From assembly GCF_039535475.1 (NCBI RefSeq), contig NZ_BAAAXG010000026.1:1984001-2048000 (forward strand): a stretch of DNA of 64,000 bases. The letters are read 5' to 3'. Positions 18,253-38,274 of the stretch are shown here, in pieces (position 1 is the stretch's first letter; each line of letters opens with the position of its first letter). The stretch comes from Streptomyces showdoensis. Lineage in GTDB: Bacteria; Actinomycetota; Actinomycetes; Streptomycetales; Streptomycetaceae. Made by a program: the position numbers and the translations under genes. A model generated the notes under the pieces. The model worked only from the letters and a program-made list of their open reading frames with translations, had not been told where the DNA came from and made no database searches.

Positions 18253-19329
18253 ATGGTTCGAAAGATCGACCCGATGACTGAAGGTGAGAAAATGGGGGGC
18301 TTCGCCGACCCGTGCGGAGGGACGCGTCAGGGCGCCGGGCTCTCGTCGCTCGCGTCGCTGATCGGGCAGGACGAGACCTGCGTCGACGTCTACCGGCTCG
18401 TGATCACCCAACCGGGGTGGGGGATCGCCGAGATCGCCGCCGAGCTGGGGGCGGCCGAATCGACCGTCCGCGGCTGTCTGGACAAACTCGCCGAACTGTC
18501 CATGCTCTATCCCGCGAAGGACGCCACCGACGTCGCCCCGATAAGTCCGGAAGTGGGCCTCGCCGCCTACATTCACCGGCGGGAAACCGAAATCCATTCG
18601 CAACAGCTGGAGTTGGCCGCCGTGCGGGCCGCCACCGCCGAGCTCACCGCGATCTACGCCTCCCAGCGCGCCCGGCACGGCAATGCCGGCCTGGAGCAGC
18701 TGGAGGGCGTCAACGAGGTGCGCGCCCGGCTGTCCGAACTCGCCCGGCACGCCACCACCGAGATCCTCGCCTTCATGCCCGGCGGCGCCCAGAGCCCCGA
18801 GGCGCTGGAGGCGAGCCGGCCGCTGGACGAGCAGAGCCTGTCCGCCGGGGTGGCGCTGCGCACCATCTACCTCGACAGCGTCCGCAACGACCGGGCCACC
18901 ACCGAGTACGCCCGCTGGCTCTCCGAGCTCGGCGGCGAGATCAGGACGACGCCCTCGCTGCCGCTGCGCATGCTCATCGCCGACCGGAACGTCGCGCTCC
19001 TCCCGGTCAGCCCCGAGGACACCCGGGCCGGGGCCGTCATCCTGCGCGCCCCCGGGGTCGTCACCGCCCTCCTCGCCCTCTTCGAGATGGTGTGGGAGAG
19101 CGCCGCGCCGCTGCACGGGAAGCAGCAGCCCGCGGCCGACGAACCCACCCAGCAGGAGATCGAGTTGCTCCGGCTGCTGCAGAAGGGACACACCGACGAG
19201 GTGGCCGCCCGCAAGCTGGGTCTCTCGCTGCGCACCGCGCGCCGGATGATGTCCACGATCTCCCAACGCCTGGGCGCCCGCAGCCGGTTCGAGACGGGGG
19301 TTCTGGCCGAAAGGGCCGGCTGGCTCTGA
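18253..19329 (+). CDS. TrmB-like/LuxR-type pathway regulator
   Basis: 358-aa regulator. The N-terminal part (about 33-90) is a TrmB/winged-helix-like HTH: GWGIAEIAAELGAAESTVRGCLDKLAELSML. The middle is a phospholipase-D-like effector fold seen in TrmB relatives. The C-terminus is a LuxR-type helix-turn-helix: EIELLRLLQKGHTDEVAARKLGLSLRTARRMMSTISQRLGA. No receiver domain is present. This architecture is common for cluster-situated regulators in Streptomyces. It is the first gene of the cluster and the best candidate to bind the 32-bp sites at 19921 and 38319. The start is uncertain: ATG 18292 has a better Shine-Dalgarno (AAGGTGAG) than ATG 18253. Confidence 0.85.
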   Translation: MVRKIDPMTEGEKMGGFADPCGGTRQGAGLSSLASLIGQDETCVDVYRLVITQPGWGIAEIAAELGAAESTVRGCLDKLAELSMLYPAKDATDVAPISPEVGLAAYIHRRETEIHSQQLELAAVRAATAELTAIYASQRARHGNAGLEQLEGVNEVRARLSELARHATTEILAFMPGGAQSPEALEASRPLDEQSLSAGVALRTIYLDSVRNDRATTEYARWLSELGGEIRTTPSLPLRMLIADRNVALLPVSPEDTRAGAVILRAPGVVTALLALFEMVWESAAPLHGKQQPAADEPTQQEIELLRLLQKGHTDEVAARKLGLSLRTARRMMSTISQRLGARSRFETGVLAERAGWL

Positions 19330-20111: not shown

Positions 20112-21923
20112 ATGAAACCCGGTGTCACCCTCCACGAGAATTTCGAGCGGACCGCCTCCCGTTTCCCGGAATCCGTCGCCGTCACCGACGGCCGCACCCA
20201 GCTCACCTACCGCGAGCTGGACGAGCGGGCCGAGCGTCTCGCCGGGGCGCTGCGGGCCGCCGGTGCGGGGCGGGACCAGCGGGTCGGGCTCTGCGTCGAG
20301 CGGGGTGCGGAGCTGGTCGTCGGACTGCTCGGCATCCTGAAGGCCGGGGCCGGTTACGTACCGGTCGACCCCGCCTACCCGGCCGAGCGCCGCGAGTTCG
20401 TCCTCGGCCACTGCGACTCCGGTCTGGTCGTCGCCCACGCCGCGACCGCCCCCCTCGTCGAGGGCCGCCGGGTCGTCCGGGTGGACGCGCTGCCGGAGAC
20501 CGTCACCGAGGCGCCGGCCGGGCACCAGGCCGCGGACGCCGAGAGCCTCGCGTACGTCATCTTCACCTCCGGTTCGACGGGCGAGCCCAAGGGCGTCGAG
20601 ATCGAACACCGCAACGCGGTCCGGCTGTTCACCGCCACCGCCCCGGTCTTCGCCTTCGACGAGACCGACGTGTGGACCAACTTCCACTCCACCGCCTTCG
20701 ACTTCTCCGTCTGGGAGATCTGGGGCGCGCTGTTCTTCGGCGGCCGCCTGGTGATCGTCGACCGCGACACCGCCCGCGACCCGCAGGCCTTCCTCACGCT
20801 GCTGCGCCGCGAGCGCGTCACCGTGCTCAACCAGACGCCCTCGGCGTTCCGGAACCTCATCAACGTCGACGAGGGGCAGCCGCTCGACCTGCGGTACGTC
20901 GTCTTCGGCGGCGAGAAGCTGGACTACCGCTCGCTGAAGCCCTGGGTGGAGCGCCACGGCATCGAGACCCCCGCGCTCGTCAACATGTACGGCATCACCG
21001 AGACCACGGTGCACGTCACCTGGAAGGTCATCGGCGAGGCCGACCTGTCCGGCGAGGGCGACAGCCTCATCGGCAAGCCCATCGCCGACCTGCGGCTCGC
21101 CGTCCTCGACGAGCAGGGAGCGGAGCTCCCGATCGGCACCGAGGGCGGGCTGCACGTGGCCGGCGCCGGTGTCGCCCGCGGCTACCTGGGCCACCCGGAG
21201 CTGACCGCCGCCCGCTTCGTCGAGCGGACCCTGGCCGACGGCACCACCGAGCGCTGGTACGACTCCGGCGACCGCGGCGTGCAGATCGCCCCGGGCCAGT
21301 TCGCCTACGCCGGCCGCGCCGACCGCCAGGTGAAGATCCGCGGCTACCGCGTCGAGCCCGGCGAGATCGAGGCCGTGCTCCAGCAGCACGCCGCCGTCCG
21401 CGACGCGGTCGTCCTCGTCGCCGACTTCGGCTCCGGCGACCCGCGCCTGGTGGCCTACCCGCTGGTCGAGGCCGGCACCGACGCCGAGGCGCTCGCCGCC
21501 GAGCTGAAGGAGGCCGTGGCGGCCGCGCTGCCCGCGTACATGGCGCCGTCCACGTACCTCGCCATCGACGAGCTCCCGGTCACCGTCAACGGCAAGCTCG
21601 ACGAGAGCGTGCTGCGCAAGCGCCTGGAGGTCCAGCTCGCCGAGGCCGCCGACAGCGCCCGTGAGCAGAGCGCGGCCGGCGGCTCCGTGGAGGACGCGCT
21701 GCGCGGCATCTGGGCCGAGGTCCTCGGCACGGACGCGGCCGCGATCGCGGACGGCGACGAGTTCTTCGACCTCGGCGGCACCTCGTTCTCCCTGATCCAC
21801 ATGCTCAGCGTCGTCAACGACCGCTACCGGCTGAGCCTCAACGTCGGGACGCTCGCCGAGGGCGCGAACATCGCCGCCCTCGCCGCCGCCGTCCAGAACC
21901 AGCTCGCCCTCACCTCCCGCTAG
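20112..21923 (+). CDS. Free-standing NRPS A-T protein, predicted to load L-threonine (SyrB1-like)
   Basis: 603-aa adenylation plus carrier protein. The A domain has core motifs [30 protein letters not shown] and NGKLDE. Reading the ten-residue pocket by alignment with GrsA gives D-F-W-N-V-G-M-V-H-K, one residue from the classic Thr code (Ile at the fifth position). The carrier serine is in [11 protein letters not shown]. There is no C domain. SyrB1 of the syringomycin pathway has the same make-up and holds Thr for chlorination; here the next gene is a SyrB2 homologue. ATG 20112 is preceded by GGGAAAGG at a long spacing. First gene of the operon controlled by the 32-bp box. Confidence 0.94.
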
Positions 21924-21934
21924 GAGACCAGGAC

Positions 21935-22885
21935 ATGACCACCGAAGCCACCGAGAACACCGAGACCCGGACGTCGTTCGCGCTCTCCCCGGAGGAGATC
22001 GAGCAGTTCCACCGCCAGGGCTTCATCGGCCCGTTCACCCTCTACACGCCGGAGGAGATGAAGGCGCAGTGGCGCAAGACGCGCCTCCAGCTGCTGGACC
22101 GCAGCGACGCCGTCTACCCGGACGACGCGCTGGCCGGCGCCACCAACATCTCCAACTACGACCGTCACCTCGACAACGACTTCCTCGCCTCCCACATCGG
22201 GCGCCCCGAGATCGTCGACCGGGTGAACTCCATCCTCGGCCCGGACGTCATCTGCTGGCGCACCGAGTTCTTCCCGAAGCACCCGGGTGACGAGGGCACC
22301 GACTGGCACCAGGCGGACACCTTCGCCAACGCGTCGGGCACCCCGCAGATCCTGTGGCCGGACAACTCCGACTTCGGCGGCACCATCACCGTCTGGTCGG
22401 CGTTCACCGAGGCCGCCGTCGAGAACGGCTGCCTGCAGTTCATCCCCGGCACGCACGAGTCGATGAACTACGACGAGACCAAGCGGATGCACTACGACCC
22501 CAACTCGATCAACTCGGTCGACAAGGACGGCATCCGCCGCGGCTTCTTCGGCTACGACTACCGCCAGCTGCAGAAGGACCCGAACTGGACCCCCGACGAG
22601 GACCAGGCCGTCTCGCAGGTCATGCGCCCGGGCCAGTTCATCATCTTCTGGTCGACGCTGATGCACGCCTCGCACCCGCACGAGGGCAAGACCAACGAGA
22701 TGCGGATGGGCTTCGCCTCCCGCTACGTGCCCTCCACGGTCACCGTCTACCCGGACAGCGACCACATCGAGGAGTACGGCGGCCGCATCAGCCTGGACCG
22801 CTACGGCTCCGTCCTGGTCAGCGGCGAGAACAAGAACGCCGACAACCGCATGGTCACGGAGACCACCCGGGGGAAGAAGTTCTGA
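21935..22885 (+). CDS. Non-haem iron/2-oxoglutarate halogenase acting on carrier-bound Thr (SyrB2-like)
   Basis: 316-aa chlorinase. The iron site reads DWHQADTF, with His125 and Ala127 in place of the Asp/Glu of hydroxylases. This swap opens the site for chloride. The second iron ligand is His244 in LMHASHPH. The spacing (119 residues) is the same as SyrB2 His116/His235. Long stretches match SyrB2 as I know it (for example [33 protein letters not shown]). Expected reaction: Thr-S-carrier to 4-chloro-Thr-S-carrier using Fe(II), 2-oxoglutarate, O2 and chloride. Free 4-chlorothreonine with a similar enzyme is known from Streptomyces. It ends one base before the next start. Confidence 0.96.
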
Positions 22886-22886
22886 C

Positions 22887-24065
22887 ATGACCACCAAGAC
22901 CCTGAGCGTGGTCGAGGTCCTCGAACTGTGCCAGCCGCTGCTCGCCGCGTCGTCGAAGACCCTGCGGGTCTTCCCGGCCGGCGAGCGGGCCTCGGAGGAG
23001 TACTCCGCGGCCGAGGCGGCCCGCTGCAACGAGGTCCTGGCCGCCGTCGGCGACGCGTACGGCCTGGTCGTCCCGTGGTTCGAGGCCGCCGCACCCCAGC
23101 AGCCGTCCGCCCTGGAGGTCGCCCTCAGCACCTATGTCGACCTGGAGCTGGGCAGCTGGCGTCCCGTCGCCGAGAGCTCGGGGCAGCCGGAGGACCTCGC
23201 GGCGGGCCTGTCCGGGCTCGCCGCCGTCCCGGGCCGGCGACTCGTCGAGGCCCCGGGCGTGCCGTCCTTCGAGGCCTTCTCCGCGGGGCCGGCCGGCGAG
23301 GAGGCGATCGTCCTGATCCTGCCCTCCGGCGTGCCGGCCTCGCTGTTCCGGCCCTGGCTGGAGGAGCTGTCCTCGGGCCCGGGCGGCCGGCTGGTCGTCA
23401 CGTACGAGAACCCGTACCTGTTCGGCGGCTGGCGCGGCCTGGACACCCCGGTGGGCGACTTCGCCGAGGAGACCGCCCTGATGGGCGCGCTGCTCACGGA
23501 GTACGGGATCACCCGCGCCCATCTGGTCGGGATCTGCGGCGGGGCTCCGGTCGGCGTCGCCGCGGCGGCCGAGTTCGGCGAGCGGGTGGAGACCCTGACG
23601 GTGCTCCACCCCGACCTGAACTTCGGCGCGGGGGTCATGCGGACCCCGTTCCAGAAGCAGTTCCAGAGCGTGCTCGCCACGGCCGCGGCCGGGGTGGAGA
23701 AGGCCCGGAGCACGCTGAGCCTCTTCCTCGACCCCAACATGCTGTTCGGCGTGGAGCCGCGGCTGGCGCCGTTCATCCTCTACCCGTACGGGGACGTGGA
23801 GCTGTTCCACCGGTACGCGAAGCAGAACTACGCGCTCATGGCGTACGACGCGAACGAGGCGGCCCGGGCGATCACCCAGCGGGTGCTCATCGCCACGAGC
23901 AGCACGGACCGGATGACCCACCCCGACACCGCCCGCCACTTCGGCGACCTGGTGCGGGGCGAGGCCCGGGTCGAGGAGCGGGAGTCGGGCACCCACCACG
24001 ACATCCTGATCCCGGACCCCGAGGTCTACACGATGCTGCGGGAGTTCATCGGCGGTGGCGCGTGA
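22887..24065 (+). CDS. SyrC-like aminoacyl carrier-to-carrier shuttle (cysteine alpha/beta hydrolase fold)
   Basis: 392-aa protein of the SyrC/CmaE type. The nucleophile elbow is GICGG with Cys217 instead of Ser. In SyrC and CmaE such a cysteine takes the amino acid from one carrier and delivers it to another in trans. The following ATTLTVLHP-like strand is here ETLTVLHPDLNFGAG, and the C-terminal histidine lies in SGTHHDILIPDPEV. In this cluster it would move chloro-Thr (or the derived epoxide) from the A-T protein to the T-TE protein at 24884. It starts one base after the halogenase stop; its own stop overlaps the next GTG. Confidence 0.9.
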   Translation: MTTKTLSVVEVLELCQPLLAASSKTLRVFPAGERASEEYSAAEAARCNEVLAAVGDAYGLVVPWFEAAAPQQPSALEVALSTYVDLELGSWRPVAESSGQPEDLAAGLSGLAAVPGRRLVEAPGVPSFEAFSAGPAGEEAIVLILPSGVPASLFRPWLEELSSGPGGRLVVTYENPYLFGGWRGLDTPVGDFAEETALMGALLTEYGITRAHLVGICGGAPVGVAAAAEFGERVETLTVLHPDLNFGAGVMRTPFQKQFQSVLATAAAGVEKARSTLSLFLDPNMLFGVEPRLAPFILYPYGDVELFHRYAKQNYALMAYDANEAARAITQRVLIATSSTDRMTHPDTARHFGDLVRGEARVEERESGTHHDILIPDPEVYTMLREFIGGGA

Positions 24066-24844
24066 GCGCGGACACCCCTTCCGCCGCCGGTCCACCCGGC
24101 TCCCGTACGGCCGCCCCGGCGGAGCGCGTCGCCCTGGTCACGCAGGCGACGCGCTACGCCGGGCCCGGCGCGGTCGAGGCGCTGCGCAAGGCCGGGTACA
24201 CGGTGTTCTGCCAGGACGACGGCTTCCTCGACGAGGCGGCCCGGGCCGCCTTCGAGGACGGCCGGGACGGTGCCGTCGCCAGTGACGCCAAGACCCCGGC
24301 CGGCGCGGTCGGGCAGGCCGTCAAGCGGTACGGGCGGCTCGACGTGCTGGTCAGCAACGACGTCTACCCGGCCCGCTACCAGCCGGTCGACCAGCCCGAC
24401 GCGGCCGAGATCCGCAGGGCCGCCGAGGCGCTGCTGGTCACCCCGGCGGCGGTGCTCGGGAAGGCCGCCGCGCACATGAGGCGGCGGGGGAGCGGCCACA
24501 TCGTGGTGCTGACCTCGGCCGCCCCGCAGCGGCCCGAGCACGGCTTCTCCGTCTACAGCGCGCTGCGCGCCGCGGCCTCCGTGTACGCGCAGGCCGCGGC
24601 CCGCGAACTCGCCCCGCACGGGGTGGTCGTGCACGCGATCGCGCCCAACTTCCTCGAGAGCGAGACCTATTACCCGCCGGAGGCGTGGGCGACGGACGAG
24701 GGCCGGGAGAAGCTCCGCGGTCTGCTGCCGGCCGGCCGTCTCGGCACCGCCCGCGAGATCGGCGACCTGGTGGTCTTCCTGACCAGCGGTTCCGCCGACT
24801 TCCTGACCGGCGACGTCATCCCCTTCACGGGCGGCTGGGCGTAG
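24062..24844 (+). CDS. Halohydrin dehalogenase-like protein (SDR superfamily)
   Basis: 260-aa protein, GTG start overlapping the previous stop. It is not an ordinary SDR. The NAD-binding GxxxGxG is replaced by T27-QATR-Y32-A-G34, which is the halide-site motif T-X4-(F/Y)-X-G of halohydrin dehalogenases. The catalytic residues are Ser152-X12-Tyr165-X3-Arg169, with Arg where SDRs have Lys. Segments such as DVLVSNDVYPARYQPVD, RRRGSGHIVVLTSA and LASGS-like FLTSGSADFLTGDV follow HheC as I remember it. Expected chemistry is intramolecular attack of a hydroxyl on the adjacent C-Cl with chloride release, so 4-chloro-Thr (3-OH, 4-Cl) would give a 3,4-epoxide. Whether the substrate is free or carrier-bound is unknown. 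Confidence 0.92.
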   Translation: MSADTPSAAGPPGSRTAAPAERVALVTQATRYAGPGAVEALRKAGYTVFCQDDGFLDEAARAAFEDGRDGAVASDAKTPAGAVGQAVKRYGRLDVLVSNDVYPARYQPVDQPDAAEIRRAAEALLVTPAAVLGKAAAHMRRRGSGHIVVLTSAAPQRPEHGFSVYSALRAAASVYAQAAARELAPHGVVVHAIAPNFLESETYYPPEAWATDEGREKLRGLLPAGRLGTAREIGDLVVFLTSGSADFLTGDVIPFTGGWA

Positions 24845-24883
24845 CCGCCACCCCTTCCTTGCGACGAAAGTGAGAGTTCCGCT

Positions 24884-25969
24884 GTGAGTGCTCGGCAGAC
24901 AACCATCGAGGAGTCCGAGGTCACGCCGGGTCAGAGCCTGGTGGAGCAGACCCTCGTCGAGATCTGGAAGACCACGCTGGACAAGGAGGCCGTCGGGCTC
25001 GACGACGACTTCTTCGCGACCGGGGGCGACTCCCTCCTGGCCCTGGTCACCATCGAGCAGATCAACCAGCGGCTCGGCTGGTCCCTGAACATGGGCGACC
25101 TGCTGCGCCACCGCACCATCCGCAAGCTGTGCGCCACCAAGGCGCTGCTGCAGGCCGCGCCCACCGAGCGGTCCGTGATCCGGATGAGCAACCAGGGCGC
25201 GCGGACCCCGCTCGTCTTCATCCACCCGGGCATCGGCCTGGTCGACGGCTACGGGCACCTGGTGCGGCTGCTCGGCGCCGACCGCGCCTGCTACGGCATC
25301 CAGTCCCCGCACATCAGCGACGTGGCCGTCTCCGACGACATGCGGGAGCTGGCCGAGCAGTACGCGGACCTGATCGAGGACGAGTTCGGTGAGGACGACT
25401 TCCACCTGGTCGGCGCCTGCGCGGGCGGAGTGATCGGTTACGAGATCGCCCGCATCGCGGAGGAGCGCGGCCTGGGCCTGCAGAAGCTGGTCATCGTCGA
25501 CGGCTACCTGGACGGCTCGCGCACCGGCGCGGAGGAGCCCGGCACCGAGCAGGTCCGGCTGGTCGACTACCGCTACGACATGCTGCGGCTCATCGCCCCG
25601 CACACCGAGCACGCCTCGCTCGACCCGGCCGACGCCGAGCACGACAGGGTGTACGAGGAGGTGGCCGCGGTGCTGTTCGGCGCCGAGGCCGCGGCGCGGG
25701 GCGGCGGTGCCACCGCCTTCGCCGAGCGGGTCTACCGCGCCTTCCGCACCACCGCGCGGGCCCTGGAGACCTACCGTCCCGAGCCGCTCGACGTGGACGC
25801 GCTGATGCTGCTCGCCAAGGACAACGAGACCTTCGAGCTGTGGCGTGCGGCGATCACCGGGGAGCTGACCGCCGAGGTCATGGACTCGGACTCGTACGGC
25901 GTGAAGCTCTGCATGACCGACGCGGTCGAGATCGCCGCGCGCATCGACGACTTCGTGGGCGAGGGCTGA
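24884..25969 (+). CDS. Carrier-thioesterase didomain protein with a cysteine nucleophile
   Basis: 361-aa T-TE protein. The T domain (about 15-85) has the phosphopantetheine serine Ser50 in FFATGGDSLLAL. The thioesterase has the elbow GACAGG with Cys179 where the usual motif is GxSxG, and oxyanion-side FIHPGIGLVDGYG. It has no A or C domain, so its carrier must be loaded in trans, fitting the SyrC-like protein two genes upstream, and must receive the peptide from the C domain ending the NRPS at 34459. Cys thioesterases occur where unusual release is needed, for example the beta-lactone former ObiF of obafluorin. GTG start with weak Shine-Dalgarno. Confidence 0.92.
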   Translation: MSARQTTIEESEVTPGQSLVEQTLVEIWKTTLDKEAVGLDDDFFATGGDSLLALVTIEQINQRLGWSLNMGDLLRHRTIRKLCATKALLQAAPTERSVIRMSNQGARTPLVFIHPGIGLVDGYGHLVRLLGADRACYGIQSPHISDVAVSDDMRELAEQYADLIEDEFGEDDFHLVGACAGGVIGYEIARIAEERGLGLQKLVIVDGYLDGSRTGAEEPGTEQVRLVDYRYDMLRLIAPHTEHASLDPADAEHDRVYEEVAAVLFGAEAAARGGGATAFAERVYRAFRTTARALETYRPEPLDVDALMLLAKDNETFELWRAAITGELTAEVMDSDSYGVKLCMTDAVEIAARIDDFVGEG

Positions 25970-25973
25970 GGAC

Positions 25974-26213
25974 ATGGGCAAGGCACAGCAGACGGACGAG
26001 GCGAGCAACCCGTTCGAGAACGAGTCGGGCGTCTACCGCGTCCTGACCAACGCCGCCGGCGAGCACTCGCTGTGGCCCGACTTCGCCGAGGTGCCGGCCG
26101 GCTGGGAGGCCGCGTTCGGCCCCGGGACGCGCACGGACTGCCTCGGGTACGTGGAGGAGCACTGGACGGCCCTCGCGCCGGCCGCGAGCACGGGACGGGA
26201 CCTGCACTCATGA
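25974..26213 (+). CDS. MbtH-like adenylation partner
   Basis: 79-aa protein with the family signature: [38 protein letters not shown]. MbtH proteins bind A domains and are often needed for their solubility and activity. The stop overlaps the NRPS start (ATGA), so one is made with the other. The C-terminal tail after the conserved tryptophan ([13 protein letters not shown]) is normal. Confidence 0.96.
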
Positions 26214-29200
26214 CCGCACAGCTGGAGCACTCCGCGGCCCCGGCCGCCCCGTGGGCCGGCGGCCTCGTCGGCCGCTTCGAGACCACGGCCGCCCGCGTCC
26301 CGGCCGCCGTCGCCGTCACCGACGGCACGACCGAGCTCACGTACGCGCAGCTCAACGCCCGCGCCAACCGGGTCGCGCACCGGCTCGCGGGGCTCGGCAT
26401 CGGCCCCGGCGACACCGTCGCCGTGGCCCTGCCGTCCTCGCCCGAGCTGGTCGCCGCCCTCCTCGGCACCCTCAAGGCCGGGGCGATGTACCTGCCGCTC
26501 GACCCGGGCTACCCGAGCGAGCGCCTGGCCTACATGACGGCCGACGCCCGCCCCCGGGCCCTGATCACCACCCCGGCCGTCGAGCCGGGCCTCGGCCCGG
26601 TGCCCGAGGGCACCGCGCGCCTCTACCCGGGCGAGGAGGCCGCCGCGCCGGAGACCGACCCGGAGGGCCGTTCCACCGGGCCCGGCCAGGGCGCGTACAC
26701 GATCTACACCTCCGGTTCGACCGGCCGCCCCAAGGGCGTCGTGGTCACCCACCGCTCGCTGGCGAACTTCCTCGCCTTCATGGCGGACCGGTACGGGGTC
26801 GGCGAGGCCGACACGATCCTGTCGACCACCCCGATCTCCTTCGACATCGCGGGCCTGGAGCTCTACCTGCCGCTGGTCACCGGCGCCACCCTGCACCTGG
26901 TGCCCCGCGAGACCGCCGTCGACGGCGCCGCGCTGCGCCGCCGGCTCGCCGAGGCCCGGCCGACCCTGGTCCAGGGCACCCCGGCGCTGTGGCAGCTGCT
27001 GCGCGAGGCGGGCTGGTCGCCGGCCGAACTGCCCGCGGGCATCCGCCTGCTGTGCGGCGGCGAGGCACTGCCGCAGGACCTCGCCGACTTCCTCGCGGCC
27101 GACGGCCACGCCGAGGTGTGGAACCTGTACGGCCCGACCGAGACCACCATCTGGTCGCTGGTCGCCCCGGTCCGCGCGGGCGCGCCCGTCACCATCGGCA
27201 CGCCGATGTGGAACACCGGCGTCCATGTCCTCGACGAGCGGCTCCGCCCGGTCGCCGACGGCCAGCCCGGCGAGCTCTACCTGTCCGGCGACGGCCTGGC
27301 CCGCGGCTACCACGGGCGCCCCGGCCTGACCGCCGAGCGCTTCGTCGCCTGCCCGTTCGGCGACACCCCCGGCGCCCGCATGTACCGCACCGGCGACGTC
27401 GTGCGCCGCCGCCCGGACGGCGCCCTCGACTTCCTCGGCCGCGTCGACGAGCAGGTCAAGATCCGCGGCTACCGCATCGAGCTCGGCGAGATCGAGGAGG
27501 CGCTGCGCCGGCTGCCCGAGGTCGCCCAGGCCCGGGTCGTGGTCCGCGAGGACGGCGGCCCCGGCTCCACCCACCTCGCCGGCTACGCGGTGCCCGCCGC
27601 CGGGCACCGCCCCGAGCCGGCCGCGCTGCGCGCCGCGCTCGCCGCCTGGCTGCCCGAGCACATGGTCCCGGCCGGAGTCGCGGTCCTGGACCGCTTCCCG
27701 CTCACCCCGGCCGGCAAGGTCGACCGCAAGGCCCTGCCGCCGCTGGAGTTCGGCACCGCCACCGCGTACCGCGCGCCCGCCACCGACGGCGAGCGGGCGC
27801 TGACCGCGCTCTTCGCCGAGGTGCTGCGGGCCGACCGGGTCGGCGCCGACGACGCCTTCTTCGACCTGGGCGGCAACTCGCTGCTCGCCACCCGCCTGGT
27901 GGCCCGGGTCCGCGCCGAGCTCGGCGTCGAACTCCCCCTCCGCGCCGTCTTCGAGGAGCGCACCCCGGCCGCCCTCGCGCTCCGCCTCGACGCGGGCGCC
28001 CCGGCCAGGCCCGCGCCCGGCAGGCGGGAGCGCGGCGCCCACCTGCCCGTCTCGTACGCGCAGGGGCGGCTGTGGTTCCTGCACCGCCTGGAGGGCCCCA
28101 GCGCCACCTACAACCTGCCGATCGCGGTCCGCCTGACCGGCGCGCTCGACACGGCCGCGCTGCAGAGGGCCGTGGACCACCTGGTCACCCGGCACGAGAG
28201 CCTGCGCACCTACTTCGGCGAGGGCCCCGAGGGCGCCGAGCAGATCGTGGTGCCGGCCGCGGAGGCCCGGGTCGGGATCGCGTTCCACGAGGTGGCCGAG
28301 TCGGAGGTGCAGGCCGCCGTCGACAAGGCCGCCGGACACCTCTTCGACCTGTCGGCGGAGATCCCCACCCGCGTCGACCTGTTCCGCACCGGCCCCGACG
28401 CGCACGTGCTGCTGCTCTGCATCCACCACATCGCCTCCGACGGCTGGTCGCTCGCCCCGCTGGTCAAGGACCTGTGCGAGGCGTACGAGGCGGCCCGCGG
28501 CGGCGCGGAGCCCGAGGCGGCCCCGCTGGGCGTCCAGTACGCGGACTACACGCTGTGGCAGCGCGAGCTGCTCGGCTCCACCGACGACCCCGGCTCGGCC
28601 ATGTCCCGGCAGCTCGCCTACTGGCGCGAGCGGCTGGCCGGCGCGCCCGAGCTGCTGGACCTGCCCACCGACCGGCCGCGCCCGGCGCTCGCCACCTTCC
28701 GCGGCGACGTCGTGCCCTTCGAGGTCGGCGCGGAGCTGACCGACCGGCTGCAGGCGCTCGCCCAGCGCGAGCGGGCCAGCCTCTTCATGGTGCTCCAGGC
28801 CGCCGCCGCCATCCTGCTGAGCAAGCTGGGCGCGGGCAGCGACATCCCGCTCGGCTCGCCGCTCGCGGGCCGCGCCGACAGCGCGCTCGACGAGCTCGTC
28901 GGCTTCTTCGTCAACACGCTGGTGCTGCGCACCGACACCTCCGGCGACCCGTCCTTCACCGAGCTGCTGGCCCGCGTGAACGAGTCGAACCTGGCCGCCT
29001 ACGACCACCAGGACCTGCCCTTCGAGTACCTGGTGGAGGTCCTCAACCCGGCCCGCACCACCAGCCACCACCCGCTGTTCCAGGTGATGCTGGTGCTCCA
29101 GAACAACGTGGAGCCCGACTGGCGGCTGCCCGGTCTGGACGCCGTCCACGAGACGGTGCCGACCCGGACCGCCAAGTTCGACCTGACGGTCGAGCTCACC

Positions 29201-32200
29201 GAGCGCTTCGACCGGGCGGGCCGCCCGGACGGGCTGCGCGGCGAGATCGAGTACGCCACCGACCTGTTCGACCGGTCCACCGTCGAGCGCTTCGCCCGCT
29301 ACCTGCTGCGCGTCCTCGACCTCGTCGTCGCCGACCCGGACCGCAGCCTGGACTCCCTCGACCTGCTCGACGCCGAGGAGCGGGGCACCGTCCTCGACGG
29401 CTGGAACGCGACCGCGCTCGACCTGCCCGGCGACACCTTCCCCGCGCTCTTCGAGGCGCAGGTCGCCAGGACCCCCGACGCGCTCGCCCTCGTCCACGAG
29501 GACACCGAGCTGAGCTACGCCGAGCTCGACCGGCGCGCCAACCGGGTCGCGCACTGGCTGATCGAGCGGGGCGTCGGCCGCGACGACGTGGTGGGCCTGT
29601 CCCTGCGCCGCTCGCCCGACCTGCTGGCGAGCCTGCTCGGCATCCTCAAGGCGGGCGGCGTCTATCTGCCGCTCGACCCCGACTACCCGCCGGAGCGCCT
29701 GGCGTTCATGGTCGAGGACACCCGTCCGCGGGTCCTGATCACCACCGGTGACGTCCTCGCGAAGCTGCCCGACGAGGCCCGCGAGGTGCTCCGGCTCGAA
29801 CTCGACGACCCGGCCGCACGGGCCGAGCTCGACGCGCGGCCCGGGCACGCGCCCACCGACGCCGAGCGGCGCGCCCCGCTGCGCGCCGGCGACCTGGCGT
29901 ACGTCATCTACACCTCGGGCTCGACGGGCCGCCCCAAGGGCGTGGCCGTCACCCACCTGGGCATCCCCAACCTGGCCCGCAGCTACATCGAGCGCTTCGG
30001 CCTCGACGCGGACTCCCGCTTCCTGCAGTTCTCGTCGATCAACTTCGACCCGACCTTCTGCGAGATGTGCTGCACCCTGCTGTCGGGCGCGGCCGTCATC
30101 CTCACCTCGCCGGAGGAACTGCTCTCACCGGACCGCCAGCGCGCGCTGACCGCCCGCTACCGGCCGACGCACATCACCTTCTCGCCGACCATCCTCGGCT
30201 CGATGGCCGAGGACGCGCTGGCCGCCGTCGGCCACATCATGGTGGCCGGCGAGGCCTGCCCGCCCGGGCTCGCCGCGACCTGGTCGCGCGGCCGGACGAT
30301 GATCAACGCCTACGGTCCGACCGAGGCGACCGTCGACACCCTGTACTGGCGGGTCGGCGACGCCGGGAGCGCCTTCGAGGCCGACTCGGTGCCGGTCGGC
30401 CGCCCGCTGCACAACACCCGCGTGTACGTGCTCGACGCGGCGCTGCGGCCGGTGCCGCCGGGTGTCGTCGGCGAGCTGTACATCGCCGGCCACGGCCTGG
30501 CCCGCGGCTACCTCAACCGGCCGGGGCTGACCTCCGAGCGCTTCGTGGCCTGCCCGTACGGGGAGCCCGGCGGCCGGATGTACCGCACCGGCGACCTCGC
30601 CAAGTGGCGCACCCTGCCCTCGGGCGAGGGCGTCGTGGACTTCGTCGGCCGCGCCGACGACCAGGTCAAGATCCGCGGCATGCGGATCGAGCTCGGCGAG
30701 ATCGAGGCCGTCCTCGACACCCACGACGGCGTCGCCCAGTCCGTGGTCGTCGTCCGCGAGGACACCCCCGACCACAAGCAGCTCATCGGCTACGTCGTGC
30801 CGAAGAGCGGCGAGGAGCGGGCGCACGACCTGGCCGACGACATCGAGCACGTCGACAAGTGGCAGGAGATCCACGAGCAGGGCTACAGCGAGCAGGAGGA
30901 CCTGGGCGTCGAGCAGGACTTCACCGGCTGGAACAGCAGCTACGACAACGGGCCGATCCCGCTGGACCAGATGCGCGAGTGGCAGGACGCCACGATCACC
31001 CGCATCCTCGACCTGAAGCCGCGCCGCGTCCTGGAGGTCGGCGTCGGCTCCGGCCTCATCCTGTGGAAGGTCGCCCCGCACGTCGACCACTACACCGGCG
31101 TCGACTTCTCGCCCTCGCTCATCCAGACCCTCGGCAACCGGGCAGCCGCGTCGGAGGAGCTGCGCGACCGGATCATGCTGCGCAGCCTCGCCGGCCACGA
31201 GATCGGCGACCTCGCCGGGCACACCTACGACACCGTCGTCATCAACTCCGTCGCCCAGTACTTCCCGAGCGTCCCCTACCTGATCGACGTGATCCGGCAG
31301 GCCATGGCGCTGCTGGAGCCGGGCGGCCGGATCTTCCTCGGCGACATCCGCCACCTCGGGCTGCTCCACCCCTTCCTCACCGCGATCGCCCTGCACGACG
31401 GGGCGCACGCGGACGAGCAGGCGGGCGTGGTGCGCGAGCTGGTCGAGCACACCATGGCCCTGGAGAGCGAACTCCTCCTGGACCCGGCCTTCTTCAGCCG
31501 GATCGGCGAGGAGGTCCCGGAGGTCGCGGGCGTCGACATCCAGCTCAAGCGCGGTCACCACAGCAACGAGCTGACCGACTTCCGCTACGAGGTCGTGCTG
31601 CACAAGCGGGGCACCGAACTGGTCTCCGTCGCCGACGCCGCCGAGCTGGCCTGGGACGGGGCCGAGGCCCTGCGCGCCCGCCTCGCGGACGGGCGGCCCG
31701 GTCTGCTGCGCGTCACCGGCATCCCCAACCGGCGGGTCGCCGCCGAGGTGGTCACCGCCGGGCGCATCCGCGCAGGGAGCACGGCCACCGTCCGGACCCT
31801 GGTCCCGGCCGAGCGGCCCGGCACCGACCCGGAGGCCCTGCACGCGCTGGCCGCCGAGTTCGGCTACGAGGCCCGGCTCACCTGGACCGACGCCGCCGAC
31901 GGCGACCTGTTCGACGCCGTCCTGCTCGGCCCGGAGCGGGCCGGCGCACCCTGGCTCACCGACGTCTTCCGCCACACGCCCGCCGAGGGCCGGAGCCTGT
32001 ACGCGCACGGCAACGACCCGCGTGCCGAGGAGCACACCCGCAAGCTGGCCCTGGAGGTCCGCCGGCACGCGGCCAAGCAGCTGCCCGAGCACATGGTGCC
32101 CGCGGCGGTCGTGCTGCTCGACCGGCTGCCGCTCACCCCGAACGGCAAGCTGGACACCCGGAAGCTGCCCGCGCCCGACTTCACCTCGCGGGCCGTCCGG

Positions 32201-34459
32201 CCGCCGCGCACCGAGCGGGAGATCACCCTGGCCCGGCTGTTCGCGGAGGTCCTCGGCCTGGAGACGGTCGGCGTCGACGACCAGTTCTTCGACCTGGGCG
32301 GCGACTCCATCCGCTCCATCCAGCTGGTCAGCAGGGCCCGCGCGGAGGGCTTCGTCATCACCCCGCGCGACGTCTTCCAGCACCAGACGGTGGAGGCGCT
32401 GATCGCGTGCGCCGCGCAGGCCGCCGAGGCGGTCGACCCGGCGGCGGTCGCCGCGACCGAGCTGCCGCACTGGCTGAAGACCCTGGAGACCCCCGACCCG
32501 TCCTACGGCGAACCCGCTCTCGTGTACGCCGAGTTCGGGCGGAGCCTCACCGGGGAGGCGGCCGCCGCGCTGTTCGGCGCGCTGCCCGGGATCTTCCACG
32601 CCGCGCCGGAGCACCTCGCGCTCGCCGCGTTCGCCCCCGCGCTCATCGAGTGGCGCGCCCGCCGGCTGCCCGCCGCCCAGTCCGCGCTCCGCGTCGACCT
32701 GGCGACGGACCCGGCCCCCGCTCCGTACCCGGTCAAGCTCACCCCGGGCCTGGCCGGCATCGACCGGGCGCTGACCGACCCGAAGGGCCTCGCCCGCGCC
32801 CTCAAGCGCATCAAGGAGCAGGTCCGCCAGGCCCCGGCCGAGGGTCGCAACTACGCGGAACTCGCGGCCACGAACCCGGACTTCGGCCCCTCGCAGGTCG
32901 TCTTCCGGTACGGCTCCGGCGAGGCGGGCGGTGCGGACGCCCCGTACGCCCTCCTGGTGGAGCTGCGGCCCGAGGGCGACGCGGCGGAGCTCCGCTGGCG
33001 CTGGGACACCGGTCTGTTCGACGAGGCGGAGGTGGCCGCCCTCGCGGACCGCTTCGAGCAGCTCCTCGCCGCCCTCGCGGGCCTCACCGCGCACCCGGAG
33101 CTCGGCGGGCTCACCCCCTCCGACATCACCCTGCTGCCGCTCAAGCAGTCCACGCTCACCGAGCTGGAGCGCGGCTACCCGGGCCTCGCCGACGTGCTGC
33201 CGCTCGCCCCGCTCCAGCAGGGCCTGCTGCTCCACGTCAGCGCCTCGGCCGACCCCGAGCACGACGACGACCCCTACCAGGGGCAGACCGTCTTCGACCT
33301 GGAGGGGCCGCTCGACGCCGAGCGGCTGCGCGCCGCCGCCCACGGGCTGCTCATGCGCCACGCCAACCTGCGGGCCTCCTTCGCCGTCCGCGGCCTGGAG
33401 AACCCGGTCCAGGTCGTCCGCTCCACCGTCGAGGTGCCCTGGCGGCTGCACGACCTGACCGGTCTGCCGCCCGCCGACCAGCAGGCCGAGCGGGACCGGA
33501 TCGTCGCCGAGGACGCGCGCCTGCGCTTCGACCTGGCGAACGGGCCGATGCTCCGCTTCAGCCTGATCCGCTTCGCCGCCACCCGGCACGAACTCCTCGT
33601 CGCCGACCACCACATCCTGCTCGACGGCTGGTCCATGCCGGTGGTCTGGCACGACCTGTTCGAGCTGTACGCGGGCCGCGGCGACGCCCTGCCGCCGGTC
33701 GTCCCGTACCGCTCCTACCTGGCCTGGCTGGCCGGGCAGGACAAGGCGGAGGCCGTCACGGCCTGGCAGGCGTACCTGGACGGGCTCGCCGGACCGACCC
33801 GGATCGGCACCCCGGGTCTCGCCTCCCACGTGCTGCCGCGGATGACGGGCGCGGTGCTGCCGGCCGAGCTGACCCGGGACCTTGAGCGGGCCTGCGGCCG
33901 GCTCGGGATCACCCTCAACACGGCCGTGCAGACGGCCTGGGGCCTGCTCCTCGGGCGGCTCACCGGCACCGACGACGTCGTCTTCGGCACCACCGTCTCC
34001 GAGCGGCCGGCCGAGATCGACGGGATCGAGTCGGTCGTCGGCCTGCTCATCAACACCGTGCCCCTGCGGGTGCGCGCCGCCTCCGGCGAGCCGCTGCGGT
34101 CCACCCTCACCCGGGTCCAGTCCGCGCAGCTCGACGTCTTCCCGCACCGCCACCTGGGCCTCACCGAGATCCAGCGCCTGGCCGGCACGGGCGAGCTGTT
34201 CGACTCGTACTACGTTTTCCAGAACTACCCCGACCAGGAGGACGGAGCCGCCGACCTCGGCGGGCTGCGGGCGACCGAGCGCACCGACGGTGCCAAGGGC
34301 GTCTCGCACTACCCGCTCGGCATCACCGTGATCCCCGGGGAGCGTCTGGAACTGCTCTTCGGCCACCATCCCGATCTCTTCGACGAGAAGAAGATCGAAT
34401 TCGTCAAGGAAACACTCATCGAGATCATCGAGACCATCGCGGGGGAGGGCCGGGCATGA
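26210..34459 (+). CDS. Bimodular NRPS: A(Gly)-T-C-A[MT]-T-partial E-C
   Basis: 2749 aa, ATG 26210 overlapping mbtH. Domain order with rough residues: A1 15-520; T1 540-610 (GGNSLL); C1 610-1050 (HHIASDGW near 740); A2 1060-2000 interrupted by a methyltransferase at about 1540-1800 ([15 protein letters not shown]); T2 2005-2080 (GGDSIRS); an E-like C-terminal half 2100-2310; C2 2320-2740 (HHILLDGW near 2468). A1 pocket residues read D-I-L-Q-L-G-L-I-W-K, the classic glycine code. A2 reads about D-P-C-T-M-A-A-V-D, which I cannot assign. The MT inserted before the A10 motif indicates N-methylation. There is no terminal T or TE, so C2 should pass the dipeptide to the separate T-TE protein at 24884. 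Predicted order: Gly, N-methyl-Xaa, then the chloro-Thr-derived unit. Confidence 0.93.
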
Positions 34460-35715
34460 AGAACTTCGTCCAGCTCGTCCGCGAACTGCCCACCGCCGTA
34501 CGGATCATGCTGCTCTGCGCGATGGCGCGCGCGATCAGCTTCTTCGGCATCCTCGCCTATCTGCCGATCTACCTGCACGACTCGCTCGGCATGAACGGCG
34601 CCACCATCGGCTACGTCCTGGGCGTCTGCCTGCTGGTCGGCACCTTCGTCAGCGTCTACGGCGGCTATCTGGCCGACCGGTTCGTCAAGGTCGACTTCAT
34701 GATCGTCCTGGACGTGCTGCTCACCGGCCTCTACGGCGCGCTGCCCTTCCTGGACTCCCCGGTCCTGGTCATCGGCCTGCTCCTGGTCGCCAACACGGCC
34801 TCCTCCTCGATGAGCGTCACCGCCAACGCGCTCCTCGCCGACCTGCTCCCCTCGGAGAACCGCGCCAAGGTGTTCTCGCTGCGCTACTCGCTGCAGAACA
34901 TCGGCGCGGCCGTCGGCCCCTTCCTCGCCGTGGCGATGGTCAAGGCGGGCACCGGCGGGCCGTTCTGGCTCGCGGCCGGCGTCATCTTCGCCGCGCTGCT
35001 GCCGCTGCTGATCTTCCGCGGGCTGTTCACGGCGGGCACGGCGGAGGGCAAGGGCGCCGAGGACGCCGAGGACTCCGACGACGAGTCGATGAACTTCCGC
35101 GAGGTGCTGCGGGTCATGCGGGCCGACCGCCGGCTCGGCCTCTTCACCCTCGGCGGCATCCTCAGCATCGTGGTCTACGGGCCGCTGCTGACCTACATGT
35201 CCCAGTACCTGGGCATGGTCGAGTCCCGGGACACCGCGCTGCGGCTGGTCGCCTACATCTCGGCCGCCAACGCGATCGTCGTGATCTCCACCCAGTACGT
35301 CATCGGCAGCCGGCTCAAGGAGAAGACCCTGCTGCGCTGGCTCACCTGGGGCACCGGGGCCTTCGTCCTCGGCCTGATCGGACTGGCGCTGTCCACCGAG
35401 GTGTGGATCATCGTCGCCGCGATCGTCGTCTTCACCATCGGCGAGGTCATCGTGGTCCCCGCCGAGTACATGTTCATCGACAACATCGCTCCCGCGAACC
35501 TTCGCGGCAGCTACTTCGGCGCGCAGAACCTCGTCCACATCGGGGTCGCGATCGGTCCGATCATCTGTGGCTTCCTCCTCGTGCACGCCTCCCCGGCCGC
35601 GATGTTCGCCGCACTGATCGTCCTGGTCGTCGCCGGCTGGTGGTTCTACGTCCTGGGCTGCCGCGCCTCCGCCCCCGCCACCGCATCGGAAACCGAAGCC
35701 GTGAGGTCAGCATGA
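34456..35715 (+). CDS. MFS transporter (probable product exporter)
   Basis: 419 aa with about twelve hydrophobic segments and an acidic central loop ([12 protein letters not shown], about residues 203-215) between the two halves. The conserved loop-2 type motif is [10 protein letters not shown]. It overlaps the NRPS stop by ATGA, so it is coupled to peptide synthesis. Export of the product, and therefore self-protection, is the natural reading. The 3' end overlaps the next gene start. Confidence 0.92.
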
Positions 35716-36383
35716 GTTTCGACGAGATCGTCCGGACCACCCACTGCCCCTTCGCCAAGCCGTCCCGCATGGGCACGCCGGTGAGCGTCACCGGCACCGA
35801 CATCGAGGCCGGGCTGCGCGAACACCGCGACACCATCGAGGAGTTCTTCGCCTCGGCCCGAGAGCGGGAGCTCGACGGGATGCTGCTCACCTTCGAGGAC
35901 CCGGGGCTCGGCGCCACCCTGCCCGCCCTGACCCGGCTCACCCGGCGCTTCTTCGAGGCGCTGTGCGAGCTGTACCCCTCGGTGTACATCCAGGACGACC
36001 CGGAGCCCGACGAGACCTGGTACGCGATGATCGGCGGCGAGCGCTTCTTCGTCGTCTCCTTCGCGCCCTGCTACCCGGAGCACTCGCCGCGCTTCAACTT
36101 CGGAAGCCCGCACACCTACTTCCTGCTCCAGCCGGCCTCCACCTTCGAGCGGAACGCCGAGCTGATCGAGCGCCGCCGGGTCCGCATCCAGCGGGCCTTC
36201 AAGGCGACCGGCCGGCCGTATGACGCGGAGCTGGCGAACCTCGAGAACGACATGTTCAAGTCCGTCATGCCGATCGACCCGATCGACCGCCCCGTCCGGT
36301 GGTGGGAGGACGCGGCGACCGTGACGGCGCTGACCACGGTGGCGGCGACGGCTCCGAAGGTCGAGCTGAGGAAGGCCGGCTAG
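35712..36383 (+). CDS. YqcI/YcgG-like protein (possible haem-dependent N-oxygenase)
   Basis: 223-aa protein starting at ATG 35712 (ATGA overlap). It starts with HCPFAKPSRMG, then has MLLTFEDPG, a central WYAMIGGERFFVVSFAPCYPEHSPRF and QPASTFERN. This pattern resembles the YqcI/YcgG family (Trp, FFVV, paired Arg/His, QP...F). One studied member, GntA of guanitoxin biosynthesis, is reported as a haem-dependent N-hydroxylase. The match is by eye and distant. If right, it could hydroxylate an amine of the peptide or its precursor. It could also be an unrelated tailoring protein. Confidence 0.6.
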   Translation: MSFDEIVRTTHCPFAKPSRMGTPVSVTGTDIEAGLREHRDTIEEFFASARERELDGMLLTFEDPGLGATLPALTRLTRRFFEALCELYPSVYIQDDPEPDETWYAMIGGERFFVVSFAPCYPEHSPRFNFGSPHTYFLLQPASTFERNAELIERRRVRIQRAFKATGRPYDAELANLENDMFKSVMPIDPIDRPVRWWEDAATVTALTTVAATAPKVELRKAG

Positions 36384-36389
36384 GGGCGA

Positions 36390-37099
36390 TGATCGAGGAA
36401 CTGCTGCCCCGGCCGGTCGCGACCGCGGAAGCGTTCGGCGACCCGGCCGGGGCGCCGGTCCCCTTCCCGGGCGAGGAGCACCTGCTCGCCCGCGCCGTCC
36501 CCGCGCGGCGACGCGAGTTCACCACCGCCCGGACCTGTGCCCGGCGGGCCCTCGGCGGGCTGGGCCTGCCCCCGGTCGCCATCCCGTACGCGGAGCCCTC
36601 CCGGGCCCCGCGGTGGCCGGACGGGATCGTCGGGAGCATCACCCACTGCGCCGGCTACCGGGCGGCGGCCGTCGCCCGGGACACGGACCTGGTGGCGCTC
36701 GGCTTCGACGCCGAACCGCACGCCGCGCTCGACAACACCGGGGTGCTGCACCTGGTCACCGGCGCCGAGGAGCGGGCCCACCTCGCCGAACTGGCCGCGC
36801 TCCGGCCGGAGATCCACTGGGACCGGGCCCTGTTCAGCGCCAAGGAGAGCGTCTTCAAGGCCTGGTCGCCGCTGACCGGGCGGTGGCTGGACTTCAGCGA
36901 GGCCACGGTCGTCTTCCGGCCGGACGACTCGACCTTCACCGCCCGGCTGCTCGTCGAGGGCCCCGTGGTGGACGGCGTACGGCTGACCGGGTTCGAAGGA
37001 GGGTTTCTCGTCAGGGACGGGCTGGTCCTCACGGCCACGACGGTACGGCGGCCCGACAATGGCCCCGATCCGCACCACCGATCGAGGGGACAGCTGTGA
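36390..37099 (+). CDS. 4'-phosphopantetheinyl transferase (EntD/Sfp-like)
   Basis: 236-aa enzyme that converts apo T domains to holo form with CoA. Motifs are VGSITHCAGYRAAAVA (substrate loop), GFDAEP (Mg ligands Asp/Glu) and FSAKESVFKAWSPL (WxxKES-type, Glu and Lys). ATG 36390 follows the previous stop by six bases. It probably activates the carriers in the A-T protein, T-TE protein and NRPS of this cluster. Its stop overlaps the next GTG start. Confidence 0.95.
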
Positions 37100-38274
37100 C
37101 CAGCGCCTTTGAATCCGCCGCATCCTCCGAGTTCTCCGCATCTTCCGAGTCCTCCGACTCCTCCGCACCGACGCTCGCCGCCTACGGGTGGGACGCCGAC
37201 TGGGCCGACGCGTTCGCCCCGCACGCCGCCGCCGGGCTCGTCCCGGCCCGGGTGGTCCGGGTGGACCGCGGCCGCTGCGAGGCGGTCGCCGCCGGGTCCG
37301 CCGACGCCGACGCGCCCGTGGCGCCGTTACGGGCGGACACCGCGCCCGTGCTCGGCGCCGATCCCACCGCCGCGCCCTGCACCGGCGACTGGGCCGCCGT
37401 CGAGACGGCCCCCGCCACCGGGGGCGGCCCGGTCGTCCGGGCGCTGCTGCCCCGCCGCACCCGCTTCACCCGCTCGACCTCCTCGGCCCGCTCCGAGGGC
37501 CAGGTGCTCGCCGCCAACATCGACCTGGCCGTCATCGCGGTCTCGCTCGCCGTCGAGCTGGACCTCGGGCGGCTGGAACGCTTCCTGTCCCTCGCCTGGT
37601 CCAGCGGCGCACAGCCCCTGGTCGTGCTGACCAAGACCGACCTGGTCCCCGACATCACCCACCTGGTGAGCGATGTCGCCGAGGCCGGCCCCGGGGCGGA
37701 GGTCTTCCCGGTCAGCGCCTTCGACGGGCACGGCCTGGACGCGCTCGCCGCGGCCCTGTCCGGCCGGACCTCGGCCCTGCTCGGCCAGTCCGGCGTCGGC
37801 AAGTCCACCCTGGTCAACGCCCTGCTGGGGGCGGAGGAACAGGAGTCGGGGGAGGTGCGCGGCAGCGACGGCAAGGGCCGGCACACCACCACCACCCGCG
37901 ATCTGCTGCCGCTGCCCTCGGGCGGGCTGCTGATCGACACCCCTGGGCTGCGCGGCGTCGGCCTGTGGGAGGCGAACGACGGTCTCACCCAGGTGTTCGC
38001 GGAGATCGAGGAGCTGGCCACCCGCTGCCGTTTCCACAACTGCGAGCACCACGCCGAACCCGGCTGCGCGGTCCTCGCCGCCGTCGAGGACGGCACCCTC
38101 TCGCACCGCCGGTTCGAGAGCTACCGCAAGCTGCTGCGCGAAAGCGCCTGGATCGCCTCGCGCACCGATGCCCGGCTGCGCGCCGAGCTCGGCCGCGAAT
38201 GGCGCCGGCGCGAGGCCGCGGGGCGTGAGATGTACGAGCGCAAGCGCGGCGGGAAACACCGTAAGGCGTTCTGA
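37096..38274 (+). CDS. RsgA-type circularly permuted GTPase inside the cluster
   Basis: 392-aa ribosome small-subunit-dependent GTPase. The permuted G-motif order is visible: G4 VLTKTDLVP, then G1 GQSGVGKST near residue 229, the G2 region GRHTTTTRDL and G3 IDTPG. The zinc module follows (CRFHNCEHHAEPGCAV). The N-terminal 35 residues are Ser/Ala-rich and extra. GTG 37096 overlaps the PPTase stop, so it is cotranslated with a biosynthetic gene. Codon 78 (37327-37329) is TTA, the rare Leu codon read by the bldA tRNA. Both points argue that it is a cluster gene rather than housekeeping rsgA; a role in self-protection at the ribosome is an inference. Confidence 0.9.
   Translation: MTSAFESAASSEFSASSESSDSSAPTLAAYGWDADWADAFAPHAAAGLVPARVVRVDRGRCEAVAAGSADADAPVAPLRADTAPVLGADPTAAPCTGDWAAVETAPATGGGPVVRALLPRRTRFTRSTSSARSEGQVLAANIDLAVIAVSLAVELDLGRLERFLSLAWSSGAQPLVVLTKTDLVPDITHLVSDVAEAGPGAEVFPVSAFDGHGLDALAAALSGRTSALLGQSGVGKSTLVNALLGAEEQESGEVRGSDGKGRHTTTTRDLLPLPSGGLLIDTPGLRGVGLWEANDGLTQVFAEIEELATRCRFHNCEHHAEPGCAVLAAVEDGTLSHRRFESYRKLLRESAWIASRTDARLRAELGREWRRREAAGREMYERKRGGKHRKAF

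Follow-up and report, generated by a model that had tools for sequence, protein, structure and literature searches.

The 64,000-nucleotide window analysed here (Streptomyces showdoensis, contig NZ_BAAAXG010000026.1, positions 1,984,001 to 2,048,000) carries on its + strand, at window positions 24062-24844, a gene with a GTG start whose 260-residue product is confirmed by sequence, tree, and fold as a member of the halohydrin dehalogenase (HHDH) family and is predicted to release halide. The gene is part of a five-gene cassette (20112-25969) for which cryptic chlorination on the way to an epoxy amino acid is the probable function, with the HHDH closing 4-chloro-Thr to a 3,4-epoxide. A preliminary description of the window had placed an HHDH beside a Thr chlorinase and had proposed such a route; the observation is confirmed, and its interpretation stands as a well supported prediction from sequence. 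The assignment to a true HHDH family, the adjoining Thr-type chlorinase, the logic of chlorination followed by ring closure, and the parallel to CmaB/CmaC of coronamic acid biosynthesis all held up. A route from cryptic Thr chlorination to a C3/C4 epoxide is not in itself new; it has a precedent from 2022 in largimycin biosynthesis (PMC9396626). Overlooked in that description were a SyrC/CmaE-like gene lying between the halogenase and HHDH genes and a carrier-thioesterase gene that follows, which together complete a cassette like CmaA/B/E/C/D-T.

Both fingerprints that tell HHDHs from short-chain dehydrogenases/reductases (SDRs), namely T-X4-F/Y-X-G and S-X12-Y-X3-R (PMC4989007, PMC11976700), are present in the protein, the first as T27-QATR-Y32-A-G34 and the second as S152, Y165, and R169, with each residue at the place where it had initially been reported. 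When the protein is aligned with 28 homologues (identity 55% or higher), Y32, G34, S152, Y165, R169, and P195 are invariant (29/29). The segment P195-N196-F197-L198 aligns with the halide loop of HheC. As a control within the same genome, 29 of 35 other SDR-superfamily matches were examined, with motif 1 looked for within the first 60 matched residues; none of the 29 carries either HHDH motif, while the SDR pattern Y-x3-K was found in 15 and a Gly-rich pattern in 18.

Comparison of the protein to the PDB with phmmer returned HHDH entries for all of the ten best matches (E 1.1e-48 to 1.9e-41; one is titled just 'dehalogenase'), followed by more HHDHs, and the first plain reductase was 6t6n (E 1.3e-20); a profile built from the 29 sequences again ranked HHDH entries first. 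An AlphaFold model of the monomer (29 input sequences; predicted local distance difference test score (pLDDT) 83.5, with a weak loop at 198-202) was used for a fold search of the PDB, in which ranks 1-17 were all HHDHs, with top template modelling (TM) scores of 0.84/0.86, and FabG appeared at rank 18; HheG and HheB types ranked lower, among SDRs. In an IQ-TREE tree of 130 rows, which omits loci L101, L132, L135, L137, L138, L076, and L007, the 124 HHDH-side rows (including HheC, HheA, and 6a41) were split from six SDRs of the same genome with support of 100/100, and the protein was placed with the HHDHs rather than among NAD(P)-binding SDRs, the placement that the preliminary description had named as refuting its reading. 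An ordinary NAD(P) SDR was rejected on motifs, tree, and fold. Pfam and NCBIfam nonetheless label the protein an SDR only, the 25 best of 176 NCBIfam matches all falling short of their cutoffs, and close database relatives are named 'SDR family oxidoreductase'; routine annotation would therefore miss the HHDH.

The protein resembles HheC and other A/C/D-type HHDHs in motifs, fold, and catalytic triad, with HheC variants as its best PDB matches (38% identity in the top fold alignment). Its clade ends at most three residues after GGW (29/29), where HheC continues for about ten more, and has Y32 at the position of HheC F12 and mostly a Glu (E159; 25/29) at what, by hand count of the alignment, is HheC W139.

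The HHDH gene lies in one + strand operon that, from the open reading frame map and Pfam/NCBIfam matches, comprises genes for a free-standing adenylation-thiolation (A-T) didomain, a halogenase, a Cys acyltransferase-like protein, the HHDH, a thiolation-thioesterase (T-TE) didomain, an MbtH-like protein, a nonribosomal peptide synthetase (NRPS), and an exporter of the major facilitator superfamily (MFS). The A-T protein (20112-21923), identified with Pfam, is predicted to activate L-Thr from a specificity code read by eye as D-F-W-N-V-G-M-V-H, which is identical across the three Streptomyces-type clusters described below and has I for V in that of Pseudomonas umsongensis. With positions assigned after GrsA, the P. 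umsongensis code equals the reference Thr code DFWNIGMVHK at the nine positions read. The gene at 21935-22885, two genes upstream of the HHDH gene, encodes an Fe(II)/2-oxoglutarate halogenase of the SyrB2 type, and the H125-Q-A127 and H244 residues claimed for it were verified. Its best PDB match is SyrB2 (2fct, E 3.5e-157), with CytC3 at E 9.9e-126, and its score for the NCBIfam chlorinating enzyme family TIGR01762 is 485.8 bits (cutoff 226.3); the HxA motif, in which Ala replaces the Fe-binding carboxylate, is kept in the halogenases of all four clusters. From the similarity to SyrB2 and the Thr-like code of the A-T neighbour, we infer that the halogenase chlorinates carrier-bound Thr at C4.

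Between the halogenase and HHDH genes lies 22887-24065, whose stop is overlapped by the HHDH start by 4 nt and whose product is predicted, from position and by analogy, to be an alpha/beta-hydrolase-like acyltransferase of the SyrC/CmaE type with C217 in GICGG as nucleophile. The Cys motif (G-I/V-C-G-G) and the Asp and His motifs are aligned and kept in 4/4 clusters; the protein has weak family matches only, with Pfam Abhydrolase_1 below cutoff, and gave no match in the PDB, and its Pseudomonas counterpart gave none in Pfam. The T-TE didomain (24884-25969; Pfam and alignment) has a Cys nucleophile in GACAGG; the nucleophile is Cys in the clusters L039 and L077 as well but Ser in the Pseudomonas T-TE (L078 11592-12647). 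Downstream are the MbtH-like gene (25974-26213; PF03621, E 1.2e-24), the NRPS gene (26210-34459), and the MFS exporter gene (34456-35715; PF07690). According to Pfam, the NRPS is organised as A1-T-C-A2 (with an embedded methyltransferase)-T-C, with about 260 residues between the second T and the last condensation (C) domain that have no Pfam match and that by eye resemble an epimerization domain, with the look of a remnant. The A1 and A2 codes (nine positions each, by eye) are identical in 4/4 clusters; that of A1 resembles a Gly code, and that of A2, DPCTMAAVD, is unusual and was assigned no specificity. Residue 2 may be N-methylated, to judge by the embedded methyltransferase. With a C domain at its end and no third A domain seen with Pfam, the NRPS should use the residue on the T-TE protein.

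Taken in order, the proposed pathway would begin with the A-T protein loading L-Thr onto its own carrier, as indicated by its code, followed by chlorination at C4, as expected from the halogenase family, to give carrier-bound 4-chloro-Thr (a 2-amino-4-chloro-3-hydroxybutyryl thioester). By analogy to SyrC and CmaE, the Cys acyltransferase would transfer the chlorinated residue to the T-TE carrier. There, Tyr165 and Arg169 of the HHDH would act as base while Ser152 holds the 3-OH, whose oxygen would displace chloride from C4; the chloride would exit into a pocket formed by Tyr32 and the P195-N-F-L loop, and the product would be the 3,4-epoxide (a 2-amino-3,4-epoxybutyryl unit). The final NRPS C domain might then join a dipeptide of a Gly-like and an N-methylated residue to the epoxy unit, after which the thioesterase would release a small peptide for export by the MFS protein. 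Family membership, intact motifs, and a conserved operon are what the data show directly; each catalytic step, the relative order of transfer and ring closure, and the survival of the epoxide in the product are inferred. The chemistry would be in keeping with known substrates: 4-chloro-Thr (2-amino-4-chloro-3-hydroxybutyrate) is a vicinal chlorohydrin, and its thioester can be viewed as the 2-amino analogue of ethyl 4-chloro-3-hydroxybutyrate, a compound turned over by HHDHs (PMC4989007) and one to which the titles of two HheC complexes among the fold matches, 4ixt and 4ixw, point.

The order of the cassette recurs in three other genomes: G384 of the same genus (locus L039, which is the same as L075), Streptomyces galbus DSM 40089 (L077), and P. 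umsongensis DSM 16611 (L078). Identities to the window proteins in these three clusters are, respectively, 84%, 65%, and 57% for the HHDH, 78%, 58%, and 44% for the acyltransferase, and 84%, 70%, and 55% for the MFS exporter. The 4-nt overlap of HHDH and acyltransferase genes is found in three of the four clusters (the HHDH start in G384 is not resolved), and a T-TE gene follows the HHDH gene in all four, directly in three and one gene later in Pseudomonas, where the fatty-acid-desaturase-like gene at L078 10708-11595 intervenes. Since the acyltransferases at the 12 halogenase loci that lack an HHDH are only 27-33% identical to that of the window, the five genes seem to have moved together, which suggests, from sequence comparison, a single HHDH cassette lineage that crossed phyla. 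In the tree, the HHDHs of the window, L039, L077, and L078 form one clade with 28 database proteins (32 rows, 100/100); of the 62 halogenase-free loci, 57 were included in the tree, and all 57 fall outside this clade.

The combination is rare. SyrB2-type halogenases were found at E ≤ 1e-80 in 33 of 392 genomes of the genus (own included), and among 36 other halogenase loci a single one, L039 of G384, had an HHDH match at E ≤ 1e-10, together with the whole cassette; 12 of the 13 genus loci with both halogenase and acyltransferase are without an HHDH. Homologs of the HHDH occurred at E ≤ 1e-28 in 3/392 genus genomes, one of which (G142, 42% identity) lies outside the clade, at E ≤ 1e-40 in 1/396 genomes sampled from the phylum (that of the window), and at E ≤ 1e-45 in 1/398 genomes sampled from the genus of P. 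umsongensis (that of P. umsongensis itself); plasmids gave no match at E ≤ 1e-30. A scan of genome contigs with an HHDH profile gave 64 loci, to which L075 and L076 (the same as L112) were added for a total of 66 tested: 60 had the HHDH alone, three (L075, L077, and L078) had the cassette, and three (L079, L092, and L116) had a weak match to an adenylation domain. No SyrB2-type halogenase match at E ≤ 1e-8 was found near the 62 distinct distant HHDH-like loci, several of which have short flanks, and Pfam searches of neighbours (five genes at L112, three at L131, and two at L079) revealed no halogenase or NRPS domain. Motif 2 with exact spacing is present at 22 of these 62 loci and is partial or spaced differently at the rest, so the comparison set is mixed and perhaps does not consist of HHDHs throughout. 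A general link between HHDHs and Thr chlorinases was rejected on account of the 62 distant loci without a halogenase match. One HHDH relative of 42% identity outside the cassette clade, at L112 7343-8062 in Streptomyces sp. NWU339 (the same HHDH-like locus as that of G142), has thiolase and acyl-CoA thioesterase genes as neighbours, and no SyrB2-type halogenase was found there.

The cassette has parts in common with several known systems. Like CmaA/B/E/C/D/T of coronamic acid biosynthesis, it combines an A-T carrier, a SyrB2-type halogenase, a putative acyltransferase, a separate carrier, a thioesterase, and an enzyme that closes, or here is predicted to close, a three-membered ring with loss of chloride. 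CmaC is a metal-dependent vicinal-oxygen-chelate (VOC) enzyme that closes a cyclopropane, whereas here an SDR-fold HHDH is predicted to close an oxirane. Like SyrB1/SyrB2/SyrC of the syringomycin system, from which the best PDB match of the halogenase comes, it would load, chlorinate, and shuttle Thr; syringomycin retains its chlorine, and no HHDH is known in that system. The class of CmaC is mentioned in PMC9396626, and the shuttling of threonyl and chlorothreonyl residues by SyrC is stated in the title of a reference cited in PMC8748450. There is also a parallel to LrgS/LrgH/LrgY of the largimycin producer Streptomyces argillaceus (PMC9396626), in Thr activation, chlorination, aminoacyl transfer, and loss of chlorine toward a 3,4-epoxide. 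Inactivation of lrgH replaced the C18/C19 epoxide of largimycin by a plain Thr side chain, intermediates of other mutants were chlorinated at C19, and the authors proposed cryptic chlorination leading to the epoxide (PMC9396626). They considered candidates for the closing enzyme unclear, mentioning the VOC-domain protein LrgB among the unknowns, and wrote that HHDHs were known only from organisms that degrade xenobiotics, reporting no homologue in that genome (PMC9396626). A 2026 paper proposes dehalogenation before off-loading and, in its available portions, names no enzyme (PMC13200230). Unlike that system, which makes a hybrid peptide-polyketide product, the operon described here includes HHDH and T-TE genes. 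Its HHDH also differs from known ones, whose sources are degraders and database mining (PMC4989007), in standing within a biosynthetic operon. Among the matches listed in searches of openly licensed PubMed Central papers, no HHDH described in a biosynthetic cluster was found, nor anything relevant on a natural product of the oxiranylglycine type. While the route is thus already precedented by largimycin, the use of an HHDH in it and the dedicated cross-phylum cassette appear, as far as these searches go, to be new.

Although HHDHs are in industrial use, what they do in nature is not settled. According to a review from 2016, only two of the known HHDH genes share an operon with an epoxide hydrolase gene, and other physiological functions are not excluded (PMC4989007). 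On balance, though with less assurance than for the pathway itself, the clade appears to be a biosynthetic rather than degradative branch that closes carrier-bound 4-chloro-Thr in a mobile five-gene cassette of Streptomyces and Pseudomonas, which would give part of the HHDH family a natural role. The cassette is a concrete, expressible candidate for the step from chlorothreonine to epoxide left open by the largimycin papers (PMC9396626, PMC13200230). It predicts a family of epoxide-bearing peptides, for example in S. galbus DSM 40089 and P. umsongensis DSM 16611, and may provide HHDHs that are by nature adapted to chlorohydrins of the amino-acid type. Two questions, the natural role of HHDHs and the identity of the enzyme that closes chlorothreonine to an epoxide, thereby become directly testable.

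Several observations weigh against cryptic chlorination with HHDH-mediated closure. Within the clade, T27 (28/29) and N196 (27/29) are not fully invariant, ordinary SDRs also match the modelled fold (TM about 0.77/0.81 versus 0.84/0.86), and the six SDR rows of the tree sit on long branches that drew a program warning, leaving the placement by HHDH subtype unsure. Genomic context is available for four clade members only, and the association of HHDH and cassette rests on these four. The difference between Cys and Ser in the thioesterases and the desaturase-like insert in Pseudomonas raise the possibility that end products differ between clusters. HHDHs are reversible and take other nucleophiles, and the epoxide may be a mere intermediate. 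Finally, the same epoxide is formed in the largimycin strain, which is reported to be without an HHDH homologue, so closure may not need an HHDH.

Among the alternatives, the one with the most to commend it is a variant in which ring closure is kept but the HHDH works on 4-chloro-Thr after its release, or on the completed peptide, instead of a carrier-bound residue. It is a tentative possibility: the HHDH substrates described in passages of PMC4989007 and PMC11976700 are free small molecules, and a monomer model cannot show a carrier interface, while in the coronamic acid system transfer by CmaE is essential, as later enzymes refuse the substrate bound to the first carrier, CmaA (PMC8748450), which by analogy would fit tailoring on the T-TE protein.

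It is rather doubtful, if somewhat less so than for the readings that follow, that the epoxide is an intermediate that is opened by an internal or external nucleophile to a lactone, an azetidine-like ring, a diol, or a conjugate. A Pfam scan of core genes revealed no epoxide hydrolase, and the alpha/beta-type neighbour uses a Cys nucleophile, whereas epoxide hydrolases of the alpha/beta-hydrolase fold use Asp. Such opening would nevertheless be in line with the several nucleophiles that HHDHs accept (PMC4989007), with largimycin congeners that bear either an S-conjugated N-acetylcysteine or an epoxide, and with mutants that yield C-19 hydroxy compounds (PMC13200230). A catabolic operon of HHDH and epoxide hydrolase was rejected, given the same Cys nucleophile and the remaining core genes, which are NRPS-type, halogenase, MbtH, and exporter genes.

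That the HHDH instead strips chlorine from free or mis-loaded 4-chloro-Thr, an antimetabolite, as self-protection, with the product retaining its chlorine, is improbable. HHDH-family dehalogenases have been reported from the mineralization of halogenated compounds (PMC4989007), and loci with halogenase and acyltransferase but no HHDH are common in the genus; those 12 loci, however, manage without an HHDH within 20 kb, their genomes are absent from the genus HHDH matches at E ≤ 1e-28, and the HHDH gene is central in its operon, held between the overlapping acyltransferase gene and the T-TE gene. An SDR-fold enzyme that has departed from dehalogenase chemistry to become a reductase, epimerase, or dehydratase, to which the SDR-only labels might point, is highly improbable given Arg in place of the SDR Lys, T-x4-Y-x-G in place of the Gly-rich cofactor motif, and the grouping with HHDHs in tree and fold.

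Further genes flank the cluster that contains the putative epoxide-forming cassette. A putative cluster regulator with IclR-type and LuxR/GerE-type helix-turn-helix domains (18253-19329, + strand; Pfam) has counterparts upstream of the cassette in L039 (88%) and L077 (70%). Downstream of the exporter, a gene for a PptT-like phosphopantetheinyl transferase (36299-37099) has a 77% identical counterpart beside the G384 cluster and none that was found beside that of S. galbus. A hydroxylase of the VioC/GntD family, arginine/enduracididine type (38677-39699; NF041363, 412.6 bits against a cutoff of 345), has relatives beside the clusters of G384 (91%) and S. galbus (77%) and no match in the Pseudomonas stretches, and may tailor the residue selected by NRPS A2; its membership in the cluster is unsure because 22 of 101 genus genomes, counting that of the window, have relatives at E ≤ 1e-60, and one of these relatives (76%) is in a genome without this HHDH. 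Also beside the cluster is a second RsgA-type ribosome small-subunit GTPase (37138-38274), with a 64% identical copy on contig C28 of the same genome and a third, weak match (37%, E 1e-28). More than one RsgA-type match at E ≤ 1e-60 was found in 7 of 101 genus genomes (own included), and relatives stand beside the G384 (70%) and S. galbus (75%) clusters, with none found in the Pseudomonas stretches. The extra GTPase might serve for self-protection, which would hint that the target is the ribosome.

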